Notes under the pieces: generated by a model
Seen by the model: the letters and a program-made list of their open reading frames with translations, nothing else
Told to the model about the DNA's origin: nothing
Database searches by the model: none
Assembly (NCBI GenBank): GCA_913020295.1
Contig: CAJWAA010000012.1
Location: 1 to 64,000, forward strand
Direction: 5' to 3'
DNA length: 64,000 nucleotides
Origin: an uncultured Flavobacteriaceae bacterium
GTDB lineage: Bacteria > Bacteroidota > Bacteroidia > Flavobacteriales > Flavobacteriaceae
Shown here: positions 22,902 to 26,586 of the stretch, piece after piece
Numbering within the stretch: the stretch's first letter is position 1
How the letters are laid out: every line of letters begins with the position of its first letter
Made by a program: the position numbers and the translations under genes

Positions 22902-22931
22902 AAAAGCTTGGTGGAGTCACCAAGCTTTTTT
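22902..22931. terminator. Terminator between convergent hsp20 and uvrB
   Basis: A perfect 12-bp stem (AAAAGCTTGGTG with CACCAAGCTTTT) around a 4-nt loop (GAGT), followed by T residues on the plus strand. On the minus strand the hairpin starts inside the last codon of uvrB and is followed by only four T residues, so it may work in both directions but better for hsp20. Confidence 0.88.
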
Positions 22932-24921
22932 ATTGAAGTTGGTTTTGCAAGGATTTGATTTCGTCCCTGAGCCGAGCGGCTTCAATAAAGTCTAGATCTT
23001 TGGCGGCGGCCTCCATGGATTTTCTGGATTTGCGGATTTTTTTTTCTATTTCCTCTTTACTCAAATAGCGGTTTTTGGCTTCGGTGGCTTTTCGATTACT
23101 TAACTCTTGAGCGTAGGTTGCCACCGAATTTTTGGACAATGCATTGTCCAATGACTTATTTAGTGACTTGGGAATCATATTGTTTTTTAGATTGTAAGCC
23201 TTTTGTTTATCCCTTCGATAAAGGGTTTCATCGATGGTTTTTTGCATGCTTTTGGTTATGTTCTCGGCATACATTATGGCCTTTCCATTGACATTTCGTG
23301 CTGCCCGACCCACGGTTTGAGTTAAAGAACGGTGACTTCTTAAAAAACCTTCTTTGTCTGCATCCAAAATAGCTACCAGAGACACTTCAGGTAGGTCCAA
23401 GCCCTCTCTTAAGAGGTTGACTCCAACTAATACGTCGAATAATCCTTTGCGCAGGTCTTGCATGATCTCAACCCGTTCCAAGGTGTCCACATCACTGTGG
23501 ATGAATCGACAACGGATGTTGACCCTTGCGAAATATTTCGTCAATTCCTCTGCCATTCTTTTGGTTAGAGTGGTCACTAATGTGCGCTCGTCTTTTTCTA
23601 CCCTGCCTTGTATTTCCTCGATTAGATCATCGATTTGGTTCAAACAGGGCCGGATCTCTATTTCCGGATCCAGCAGTCCCGTGGGTCGAATGATCTGTTC
23701 TACATATACCCCTTCGGTTTGTTTGAGTTCGTAGTCTGCCGGAGTAGCACTCACATAAAGTACTTGATTTTGCATGGCTTCAAACTCCTCAAATTTTAAG
23801 GGTCGGTTGTCCATGGCGGCCGGTAAACGGAAGCCGTAATTGACTAGGTTTTCTTTTCGACTTCGATCCCCTCCATACATGGCATGAACCTGAGAAATGG
23901 TTACATGGCTTTCGTCCACCACCATCAAATAATCATCGGGAAAATAATCTAGCAAACAGAAAGGCCGTGTTCCAGGGTCTCTACCGTCCAAATAGCGGGA
24001 ATAATTCTCAATTCCGGAACAATAGCCCAATTCTCTTATCATTTCCAAATCAAACTCGGTGCGTTCATGCAACCGCTTGGCTTCCAAAAAACTACCGTTG
24101 GTATTGAAATAATCAACCTGTTTTACTAAGTCGTCTTGAATCTGCGCGATGGCGTTCTTGAGAATGTCGGGTGAGGTGACAAACATGTTGGCGGGGAAAA
24201 GGGTAACATTATCAAATTTTTCCAAAAGTTGGTTTTCTATGGGGTCAAAAGATTCAATTTCTTCGATCTCATCGCCAAAAAAATGGATTTTAAAGGCCAA
24301 ATCTGCATAGCCGGGAAAGATGTCAATGATATCACCGTTGACCCTAAAATTTCCTCGGTTAAACTCACCTGTTGTTCGCGAGTAAAGGCTTTGAACCAAT
24401 CGGTACAAGAGTTGGGTTCTCGAGATGACCTCTCCTTTTTCAACAGCAATAACATTTTTTTGAAACTCTACTGGATTCCCAATTCCATACAAACAGGAGA
24501 CAGAGGCAACTACCAAAACATCCCTTCTTCCGGAGAGTAGGGAGGAGGTGGTACTCAAACGCAGCTTTTCAATTTCTTCATTGATAGACAGGTCTTTTTC
24601 GATGTACAAACCACTGGATGGGATATAGGCTTCGGGCTGATAGTAATCGTAATAAGAAACAAAATACTCAACGGCATTCTTGGGAAAAAACTGTTTGAAT
24701 TCTGAATAAAGTTGAGCAGCCAGGGTTTTGTTGTGGGCCAGAACCAAAGTGGGACGTTGTAATTCTTTAATGACATTGGCCACCGTAAAGGTTTTACCGG
24801 AACCGGTAACCCCTTGCAGTGTGACATATTTTTCCCCTTCGGAAAAACCCGTTGAAATTTGGCGTATAGCCTCGGGTTGGTCTCCTGTCGGTGAAAAGTG
24901 GGATTCCAGTTTAAATTGCAT
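22930..24921 (-). CDS. uvrB: Excinuclease ABC subunit UvrB
   Basis: A 663-residue protein with Walker A GVTGSGKTF (about 37-45), the beta-hairpin region SYYDYYQPEAYIPSSG, helicase motif LMVVDESHVTISQ, the GRAARN motif and a C-terminal UVR domain (about 626-662) that binds UvrC. UvrB verifies DNA damage after UvrA loading. The ATG at 24921 lies 4 nt after a well-formed promoter, so transcription probably begins at or next to the start codon. It converges on hsp20 with the terminator between them. Confidence 0.98.
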   Translation of the reverse strand: MQFKLESHFSPTGDQPEAIRQISTGFSEGEKYVTLQGVTGSGKTFTVANVIKELQRPTLVLAHNKTLAAQLYSEFKQFFPKNAVEYFVSYYDYYQPEAYIPSSGLYIEKDLSINEEIEKLRLSTTSSLLSGRRDVLVVASVSCLYGIGNPVEFQKNVIAVEKGEVISRTQLLYRLVQSLYSRTTGEFNRGNFRVNGDIIDIFPGYADLAFKIHFFGDEIEEIESFDPIENQLLEKFDNVTLFPANMFVTSPDILKNAIAQIQDDLVKQVDYFNTNGSFLEAKRLHERTEFDLEMIRELGYCSGIENYSRYLDGRDPGTRPFCLLDYFPDDYLMVVDESHVTISQVHAMYGGDRSRKENLVNYGFRLPAAMDNRPLKFEEFEAMQNQVLYVSATPADYELKQTEGVYVEQIIRPTGLLDPEIEIRPCLNQIDDLIEEIQGRVEKDERTLVTTLTKRMAEELTKYFARVNIRCRFIHSDVDTLERVEIMQDLRKGLFDVLVGVNLLREGLDLPEVSLVAILDADKEGFLRSHRSLTQTVGRAARNVNGKAIMYAENITKSMQKTIDETLYRRDKQKAYNLKNNMIPKSLNKSLDNALSKNSVATYAQELSNRKATEAKNRYLSKEEIEKKIRKSRKSMEAAAKDLDFIEAARLRDEIKSLQNQLQ

Positions 24922-25015: not shown

Positions 25016-25023
25016 TATTTTTG
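25016..25023 (+). promoter_or_regulatory. -7 box before the kinase-like gene
   Basis: TATTTTTG, ending 13 nt before the GTG start at 25037. No TTG at the usual distance. Confidence 0.4.
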
Positions 25024-25036
25024 TTAAAAAACTATT

Positions 25037-26098
25037 GTGGAGGAGAAATTGATTTCTAAAAAAAAGCCTTTTTTTTCGATATCAGATGCGTTGATGCATT
25101 TTTTGAAAAAATACGACCGTTGGATGGATTCCTCAATCAGTTACGAAGATTTGTTGCGTTTTTCCGGTTCTGTAGTTGTATATGACAAAAATGATAATGA
25201 CACCCTATGGGTTAGGGTTTACTATTCCGATTCAGATAGGGAAGAAATAGATCACCATCTCAAAACTATATATACCCAATTGCATTCAGATGGAGGTGAT
25301 TCCTCTTTACCAGATCTTAACATTGATGCGATTGACTACTGCACCTTTGGCAATTCAAAACCTTTTCGGATAAAAATTAGAAATATATTGAACGATAACT
25401 TCACCTATTTCTATGTTAAGAAAACTGATGCCTCCAGGGTTTATGGGCTGGAATTTGAACACATCCTTTCGCCCTACAACCTAAATTATATGGTCAATCA
25501 CGATACTTTGATCGAGGAACATATCGCAGGGATTCCCGGTGATGTATTTATTAAGGATTATTTAACCCAGTGCAGTTCGACAGAAAAAGCGCAAATCGCC
25601 AAAGAGTATGTCAAATTCAATGAACGTTGTATGGTACGCTTGTTAGGAGATATGCGGGCCTACAATTATGTAGTGATTCCCATTCACGATTTCGATAAGG
25701 TGATATACAAGATCAGGGCCATAGATTTTGACCAACAATGTTTTGAAGGTAAATTTTCAGTCTATCGTCCCCAATTCTTTAAAGAAAATCACCCATTAAT
25801 GTTGGTGATCAAGGAGAAGTTAAGTCACGAGTCCATTGTTCAATACAAAATTGAAGAACGTTCTATCTTATCCCGACGATTGATCAACTCTGGCAATCGG
25901 ATTGATTTTTTAGTGAATATAATGAAGAATGATCGTTTGTCCATCCCGGAAAATCTCGAAAACTTAAAAAACGAAATTTTTGCATTTACGAAAGATGATG
26001 CTTTTACAAAAAGCAAATCCATGGGTGAGTTGATGCAAGCCGCCTTTGACTATATGCGAAGGAATTACCAAAATGTCAGTTTGGGGGATTTGCTCTAA
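25037..26098 (+). CDS. Uncharacterised protein with kinase-like motifs
   Basis: I do not recognise this 353-residue protein as a named family. Its motif order resembles a protein-kinase or APH fold: a glycine-loop-like FGNSKPFRI (104-112), a strand with Lys YFYVKKT (K128/K129), glutamates at E139/E141, a hinge-like IEEHIAGIPGD (159-169), a catalytic-loop-like LLGDMRAYNYVV (D205, N210), then IRAIDFD (D230, D232) in the DFG position. No membrane segment or signal peptide is seen. A leucine-rich N-terminal part (1-95) precedes the putative kinase lobe. The start is GTG at 25037. It converges with the next gene with stop codons overlapping by four bases. A kinase role is an inference. Confidence 0.7.
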   Translation: MEEKLISKKKPFFSISDALMHFLKKYDRWMDSSISYEDLLRFSGSVVVYDKNDNDTLWVRVYYSDSDREEIDHHLKTIYTQLHSDGGDSSLPDLNIDAIDYCTFGNSKPFRIKIRNILNDNFTYFYVKKTDASRVYGLEFEHILSPYNLNYMVNHDTLIEEHIAGIPGDVFIKDYLTQCSSTEKAQIAKEYVKFNERCMVRLLGDMRAYNYVVIPIHDFDKVIYKIRAIDFDQQCFEGKFSVYRPQFFKENHPLMLVIKEKLSHESIVQYKIEERSILSRRLINSGNRIDFLVNIMKNDRLSIPENLENLKNEIFAFTKDDAFTKSKSMGELMQAAFDYMRRNYQNVSLGDLL

Positions 26099-26586
26099 TA
26101 AAATTGGTCATCGTTAAATTCATCTTCCTCTAAGTCATCCTGTTCATTGATAGATTCTTCAAAACCTTCCTCAGCGATAAAATCTTTATTTGGTGGGGTT
26201 TCCGGTACTTCACCATGGGAAAAAATCAAACTTGGATAACCCTTGAGATAGTCTTTCTTGGCAGTTTCCATCAATTCCACAAAAAACGTCCACAGGTTTA
26301 AGAAATCGTAAACGTAGATCAGACGGTTTTCATTTTCTGATAAAATATTATTGAGGGGTTTTTCGTTGAGAGCTTCCTCCCCAACCCCCATGTCAACTAA
26401 GGGCAGTTCCTCGCCTTGGATCCAATTCTCATCAGAACGGTAAAAGGAAGCCATTTCGTTTCCGGCGAAGCCAAAGGACTGAGAGACCGCATCGTGCAGT
26501 TCCTCTAAAGTGGCAGTGGCTTCGATTTCAAAATCTCGGATAACATCGGTTTCTGTATCCAAAATTACGCGAATTCTATATATCAT
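26095..26586 (-). CDS. Plasmid pRiA4b ORF-3-like family protein
   Basis: A 163-residue acidic protein. The N-terminal part, YRIRVILDTETDVIRDFEIEATATLEELHDAV and the following QSFGFAGNEMASFY and GEELPLVDMG, fits the pRiA4b ORF-3/IS1096 passenger TnpR-like fold. The end is strongly acidic (EEDEFNDDQFY). Family function is not established, and the mobile-element name reflects first sightings rather than a mobile context. It overlaps the 3' end of the heme A synthase gene by 11 nt, the same strand, so it is probably translated from that operon. Confidence 0.75.
   Translation of the reverse strand: MIYRIRVILDTETDVIRDFEIEATATLEELHDAVSQSFGFAGNEMASFYRSDENWIQGEELPLVDMGVGEEALNEKPLNNILSENENRLIYVYDFLNLWTFFVELMETAKKDYLKGYPSLIFSHGEVPETPPNKDFIAEEGFEESINEQDDLEEDEFNDDQFY

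Follow-up and report, generated by a model that had tools for sequence, protein, structure and literature searches.

A conserved protein family of Bacteroidota placed by predicted fold and residues very probably within the protein-kinase-like superfamily

What is encoded by a well-conserved gene whose product matches no named family? The question is raised by the open reading frame at positions 25037-26098 of a 64,000-nucleotide stretch of contig CAJWAA010000012.1 from an uncultured Flavobacteriaceae bacterium (assembly GCA_913020295.1), here called the window. An earlier note, made from the letters of the window, described a 353-residue protein of no nameable family, with motifs falling in the order and spacing of a kinase or APH fold. 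The frame is uninterrupted, the opposite strand carries many stops in the sole frame translated, and all the motifs quoted lie at the residues given for them. From the gene, the family, its conservation and the predicted fold we infer an ATP-dependent phosphotransferase, presumably cytosolic, that belongs to the protein-kinase-like superfamily and forms a separate family there, with members known to date from Bacteroidota; to this reading we assign a probability of about 0.75.

Conservation was followed in an alignment of 160 rows, leaning to the taxonomic family of the window, and in a diverse set of 32 members reaching down to 35% identity. K128, E160, H162, R197, D205, N210, D230, F231, D232 and Q233 are invariant in all 160 rows and in the diverse set. 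D205, N210, D230 and D232, whose invariance the earlier note had proposed as a test, are kept in all 32 diverse members. E139 is present in 158 and E141 in 159 of the 160 rows, the remaining rows having Asp, while residue 207 is Arg in 146 rows and His in 14. Of the marks of the superfamily, the catalytic Asp, the Asn five residues on and the metal-binding Asp after strand beta8 are found as D205, N210 and D230; the Lys of beta3 and the Glu of helix alpha C are, to judge from position and conservation, probably K128 and one of E139 and E141. Eleven of the 160 rows, all distant members, carry a GDMH(A/S)GN catalytic loop, which we take to resemble the classic loops of APH and small-molecule kinases. 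The order of the motifs is that of kinases, but the spacing claimed for them fits less well: K128 is separated from E139/E141 by 11-13 residues and N210 from D230 by 20, against 19 and 13 residues for the equivalents in PKA. The second distance reflects an extended hairpin past the catalytic loop (strands 210-218 and 221-229).

Prediction with AlphaFold2 from the window protein and 75 relatives gave a model with a predicted local distance difference test (pLDDT) value of 89.3 (83.7-89.3 over five models) and a predicted template modelling score (pTM) of 0.87. Its N-lobe contains strands at residues 94-102, 110-116 and 121-129 (with K128), a helix at 132-144 and strands at 151-153 and 157-161 (with E160); after the hinge come helices 168-178 and 181-205 (with D205), the hairpin, the DFD motif at 230-232 and a helical C-lobe. 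This succession, beta1-beta2-beta3-alphaC-beta4-beta5-hinge-alphaD-alphaE-beta7-beta8-DFD, is the kinase order. In a Foldseek search of the PDB with the full model, all 27 matches at E<=0.001 (best 9e-5) were kinases or pseudokinases, as were all 50 matches listed, and in a viral library all 8 matches at E<=0.001 were protein kinases. A separate model of the core (residues 88-300, 213 residues; pLDDT 82.2, 59-82 over five models; pTM 0.77) gave 14 PDB matches at E<=0.001, again all kinases or pseudokinases (best 1.5e-4); 48 of its 50 matches listed name a kinase, and the other two, chains of 3gok, have an uninformative title. Structure prediction followed by Foldseek had been suggested as a check in the earlier note, and it leaves the kinase/APH-like fold standing: a bilobal kinase fold is seen in the predicted model, though template modelling (TM) scores stay below 0.5 in all 50 matches listed for each search.

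Most likely the protein actively transfers phosphate from ATP and is of the small-molecule-kinase (ELK) type. The five-stranded N-lobe would hold ATP through K128, which would pair with E139 or E141, and through the hinge near E160. The catalytic base would be D205, the magnesium ligands would be N210, D230 and probably D232, and R207, two residues past the catalytic Asp, could stabilise the phosphate during transfer. With the next helix starting eight residues past DFD there is no long activation segment, and this short link, together with the all-helical C-lobe, places the protein nearer to small-molecule (ELK/APH-type) kinases than to Ser/Thr protein kinases. A short DFG-to-helix link and a helical C-lobe are given as ELK traits in PMC4702295, which also describes a basic catalytic-loop residue two after the catalytic Asp (K168 of PKA) as usual for protein kinases (UbiB has His there), and ties the DFG+1 position to the choice of acceptor in such kinases. 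Q233, at the DFG+1 position, never varies, which suggests one conserved acceptor across the family. The signals for the class of acceptor conflict, since the ELK-like C-lobe stands against the basic residue at the second position after D205; the balance tips slightly towards a small metabolite rather than a protein.

A kinase fold with bound ATP could also serve a different chemistry, such as AMP transfer as in SelO, glutamylation as in SidJ or cyclisation as in lanthipeptide cyclases. The last two are known in the kinase fold, as titles of papers state, and both the DFDQQ loop and the beta1-beta2 turn of the present family differ from those of standard kinases. The residues for ordinary phosphotransfer are nevertheless all present, fixed or nearly so and in the usual order, and we consider a different chemistry improbable.

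Other observations weigh against a kinase-like enzyme altogether, and some of them would suit a protein without the kinase fold, in which a beta-sheet and helical arrangement carries the motifs by chance. Query TM-scores were 0.22-0.29 with root-mean-square deviations (RMSD) of 13-21 A for the full model and 0.34-0.46 with RMSD of 5-16 A for the core model (50 matches listed each), indicating that the C-lobe is divergent or poorly superposed. The glycine-rich loop GxGxxG occurs in none of the 160 rows, the His of HRD is replaced by L203 (L203-G204-D205) and the Gly of DFG by D232. A permissive K..E..D-x4-N..D pattern in conserved columns was also found in 3 of 21 unrelated neighbour families, so that the order of motifs alone is weak evidence.

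The same 21 families served as controls when the family profile was compared by hhalign with alignments of kinase families built from genomes of the same phylum. The scores were 24.6 for ABC1, 22.9 for APH, 21.5 for fructosamine kinase, 18.5 for Pkinase, 18.2 for DUF2252, 16.9 for HipA and 12.5 for CotH; ABC1 and APH exceed the top unrelated control (22.4), and fructosamine kinase stays below it. HHalign probabilities reached about 2% at best. Column shuffles (n=60), run for ABC1, APH and HipA, attained the observed score once for ABC1 (maximum 29.6, above the observed score), once for APH (maximum 26.7, likewise above) and ten times for HipA, and the reversed family scored 20.0 against APH. 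For Pkinase, CotH and DUF2252 the top alignment is out of register, and the APH profile sets the metal Asp at D218; we prefer D230, since the model places it after the hairpin's second strand.

On the other side, D205 and N210 are paired with the catalytic Asp and Asn in four of the seven kinase families (ABC1, APH, HipA and fructosamine kinase). Two of the four, APH and fructosamine kinase, are closely related to each other (mutual score 355-366), so these are three separate lines of register and not four. The ABC1 alignment, 81 columns long, also pairs the hinge residue E160, the basic residue two after D205 and DF at 230-231. Low scores are shared by accepted outliers: in the same test HipA, CotH and DUF2252 score 13-29 against other kinase families, a range that overlaps noise (shuffle means 15-16), whereas scores between APH, ABC1, Pkinase and fructosamine kinase are 48-366. 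The present family therefore lies far from this core group, and a weak score is compatible both with kinship and with its absence. Two separate models having drawn nothing except kinases and pseudokinases as significant PDB matches, we regard a protein without the kinase fold as very unlikely. Still less probable is a pseudokinase, binding nucleotide or acting as a scaffold without catalysis, although pseudokinase domains of TYK2 and JAK1 make up most of the full model's best PDB matches: pseudokinases as a rule lose their catalytic residues, and here the catalytic Asp, the metal-binding Asn and Asp and the Lys are invariant in all 160 rows.

By predicted fold and residues, the family very probably lies inside the protein-kinase-like superfamily and outside every kinase family tested. 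No credible Pfam or NCBIfam match was obtained for the window protein or the 32 diverse members, no PDB chain was matched by sequence even with the 32-member profile, and PHROGs and PADLOC held no fitting model, all of which bears out the statement that no family can be named. Specifically, Pkinase, APH, fructosamine kinase, ABC1 and HipA_C gave no Pfam match in the family (window protein and/or 32 members). Scattered weak matches had best E-values of 0.004 in NCBIfam, 0.002 in PHROGs and 0.0004 in PADLOC (a CARF model, 1 of 32 members). Three Pfam candidates were set aside as chance matches: PTM_DIR17_Tudor (E 2e-4, 34 residues, 21.3 bits against a cut-off of 27.2, 1 of 32 members), DUF3410 (below cut-off, 1 of 32) and CFAP300 (best E 6e-4, 2 of 32). 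No description of the family was recognised in the open-licence literature, where it has no name to search under, and PMC12599244, which deals with the pseudokinases of bacteria, names neither Bacteroidota nor Flavobacteria according to a term search. InterPro, PANTHER or the clusters of the AlphaFold DB may contain an entry for the family that gives it no function.

Among named systems, ABC1/UbiB/ADCK (PF03109) gave the best profile score (24.4-24.6), with the hinge, D205/N210 and DF in register, and shares the basic residue two after the catalytic Asp (His in UbiB). It is unlike the present family in its HHalign probability of about 2% and in the absence of any ABC1 match in the 32 members, and by the test for membership the protein falls outside it; KxGQ, which we take to be the UbiB motif, is found in 1 of the 160 rows. 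APH and fructosamine kinases (PF01636, PF03881) are alike in the register of the catalytic loop, the GDMH(A/S)GN loop of the distant members, the short stretch between DFD and the following helix and the helical C-lobe, but no Pfam match exceeds the curated cut-off, the metal Asp of APH falls on D218 and an extra N-terminal region is present here. HipA (PF07804) has its D-x4-N loop in register with D205/N210, while it differs by a score at shuffle level, no HipA_C match and no conserved operon partner in the place of an adjacent HipB antitoxin, the neighbours lying mostly on the other strand. Eukaryotic-like Ser/Thr kinases (PF00069) are matched at the level of the fold by Foldseek; unlike them, the present family has no HRD, no GxGxxG and no long activation segment, DFD instead of DFG, and a profile out of register. 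DUF2252 and CotH were rejected as nearest kin, their best alignments lying elsewhere in the protein, and Kdo kinase was found in 0 of 99 genomes. A new kinase family with many homologues in Flavobacteriales, Lani_1194, is described in a survey of Legionella kinase families (PMC9758233) as having Arg for the ATP-binding Lys, no identifiable alpha C Glu and, in 94% of its homologues, a methyltransferase domain. Here, in contrast, K128 is invariant, E139 and E141 are present and there is no credible methyltransferase match in Pfam (one match to a DNA-methyltransferase N-domain, E 0.085, 1 of 32 members); the two families are set apart by description and not by their sequences.

The coordinates of the gene, its parts and its neighbours are collected in Table 1. 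In the aligned upstream regions of the same genus (n=9) the start codon is GTG in seven rows and ATG in two, the GTG of the window being at 25037-25039. Upstream of it, TATTTTT of the TATTTTTG box is identical in all nine rows and the final G is present in eight. The box fits TAnnTTTG, which we take to be the consensus of the Bacteroidota -7 promoter element, and is possibly the promoter of the gene; if so, the leader would be very short.

Table 1. Positions in the window of the kinase-fold gene, of the predicted parts of its product and of adjacent features
Feature	Position	Strand	Remarks
Coding sequence of predicted kinase-fold protein	25037..26098	+	353 residues, GTG start, stop codon 26096-26098
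TATTTTTG box	25016..25023	+	13 bases upstream of start codon; possible promoter
Extra N-terminal region, residues 1-90	25037..25306	+	Helix, beta hairpin, helix (predicted secondary structure); precedes kinase core
C-T-F-G-N-S-x-P-F-R turn, residues 102-111	25340..25369	+	Between beta1 and beta2, in place of glycine-rich loop; N106, P109, R111 invariant
K128 on beta3 (strand 121-129)	25418..25420	+	Predicted ATP-binding Lys; 160/160 rows
E139, E141 on helix 132-144 (alpha C)	25451..25459	+	One is the predicted ion-pair Glu; 158/160, 159/160 rows
beta5 and hinge, residues 157-169, TLIEEHIAGIPGD	25505..25543	+	E160, H162, G165 invariant; aligned to ABC1 hinge
Catalytic loop LLGDMR(S/A)YN, residues 202-212	25640..25672	+	D205, N210 invariant; in register with APH, ABC1, HipA, fructosamine kinase
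DFDQQ metal loop, residues 230-234	25724..25738	+	In place of DFG; D230, F231, D232, Q233 invariant; DF in ABC1 register
Remainder of C-lobe, residues 240-344	25754..26068	+	All-helical; helix starts 8 residues past DFD
pRiA4b ORF-3-like protein gene	26095..26586	-	Convergent neighbour, overlaps kinase-fold gene by 4 bases; outside system
uvrB	22930..24921	-	Divergent neighbour; outside system

Across 111 loci, with open reading frames called mechanically and not by a gene caller, the nearest gene lies on the opposite strand upstream in 77 of 108 and downstream in 85 of 108 cases. No recurring operon partner was found, no Pfam family occurring in more than three loci (49 of 96 candidate neighbours searched, in 26 loci, most of them distant), and among the loci compared no neighbour recurs widely outside the taxonomic family of the window. 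As the gene mostly faces its neighbours and has no widely recurring partner, the neighbourhood gives no clue to function. Downstream of it in the window stand the pRiA4b ORF-3-like gene, then COX15, then a gene resembling poly(A) polymerase/tRNA nucleotidyltransferase; protein clusters resembling the products of these three genes, matched by eye from the starts of the proteins, lie downstream in 65, 63 and 50 of the 111 loci, respectively.

A search of 60 related genomes found relatives in 35, and one of 296 genomes covering the phylum found them in 80, both counts taking in the window's own genome; these counts cover Bacteroidota, and the confinement of the family is to be read within that scope. 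In the taxonomic family of the window 29 of the 30 listed genomes carry a relative, own included, as do 18 of the 21 other genomes of the genus, the three genomes without a match being 67-79% complete. A single match was found in 78 of the 80 phylum genomes with a relative, the exceptions being G149 with two copies and G305 with fragments. The second copy in G149 (L158, C3) is a diverged paralogue, 35% identical to the window protein, that keeps all catalytic residues; in G305 the family profile matches just two short fragments interrupted by stops (L172, G305:C1:3158151-3158410), apparently the remains of a decayed copy. Two further copies (L020, G018:C10, and G168:C6:656370-657392) are broken by a stop or frame break, through either assembly error or recent loss, and at L165 (G287) the mechanically called frame extends upstream by about 280 more residues, rich in Arg and Ala, which probably reflects a spurious reading frame and not a fusion.

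The best 80 of at least 588 stretches encoding a relative come mostly from Flavobacteriaceae or uncultured Bacteroidota, including Tenacibaculum, Maribacter, Zobellia and Flavobacterium. Two records titled as metagenome-assembled genomes of Rhodospirillaceae (L052) and Rhodobacteraceae (L115), with copies 65% and 63% identical to the window protein, are probably misbinned or mislabelled contigs. No relatives were found in plasmids, phages or IMG/VR viral contigs, and a mobile or phage-borne gene is accordingly unlikely. The protein shares 85-93% amino-acid identity with 11 copies from the same genus, with synonymous sites near or past saturation; in the five of these 11 pairs with an unsaturated synonymous rate (dS), the ratio of nonsynonymous to synonymous rates (dN/dS) is 0.021-0.033, and the gene is under strong purifying selection. 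Together with the intact relatives found across the phylum and the fixed or nearly fixed catalytic residues, this shows that the pattern first noticed is no product of chance.

A family carried by nearly every listed genome of its own taxonomic family, with fixed catalytic residues and a match in none of Pfam, NCBIfam and PDB, points to a phosphorylation reaction, in a common group of bacteria, for which no description was found. It might be a housekeeping kinase confined to the Bacteroidota lineage, kept in single copy and acting on one conserved acceptor in a yet unknown pathway, a proposal that we hold tentatively and think on balance unlikely. In the 2-Mb genome of the window, 91% complete, the search for eight other kinase families found a single ABC1 gene, separate from the kinase-fold gene, and no APH, HipA, Pkinase, fructosamine kinase or CotH (E<=1e-8) and no DUF2252 or Kdo kinase (E<=1e-6). 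In view of this near-empty result, the gene may encode one of the very few kinase-fold enzymes that this organism has kept.
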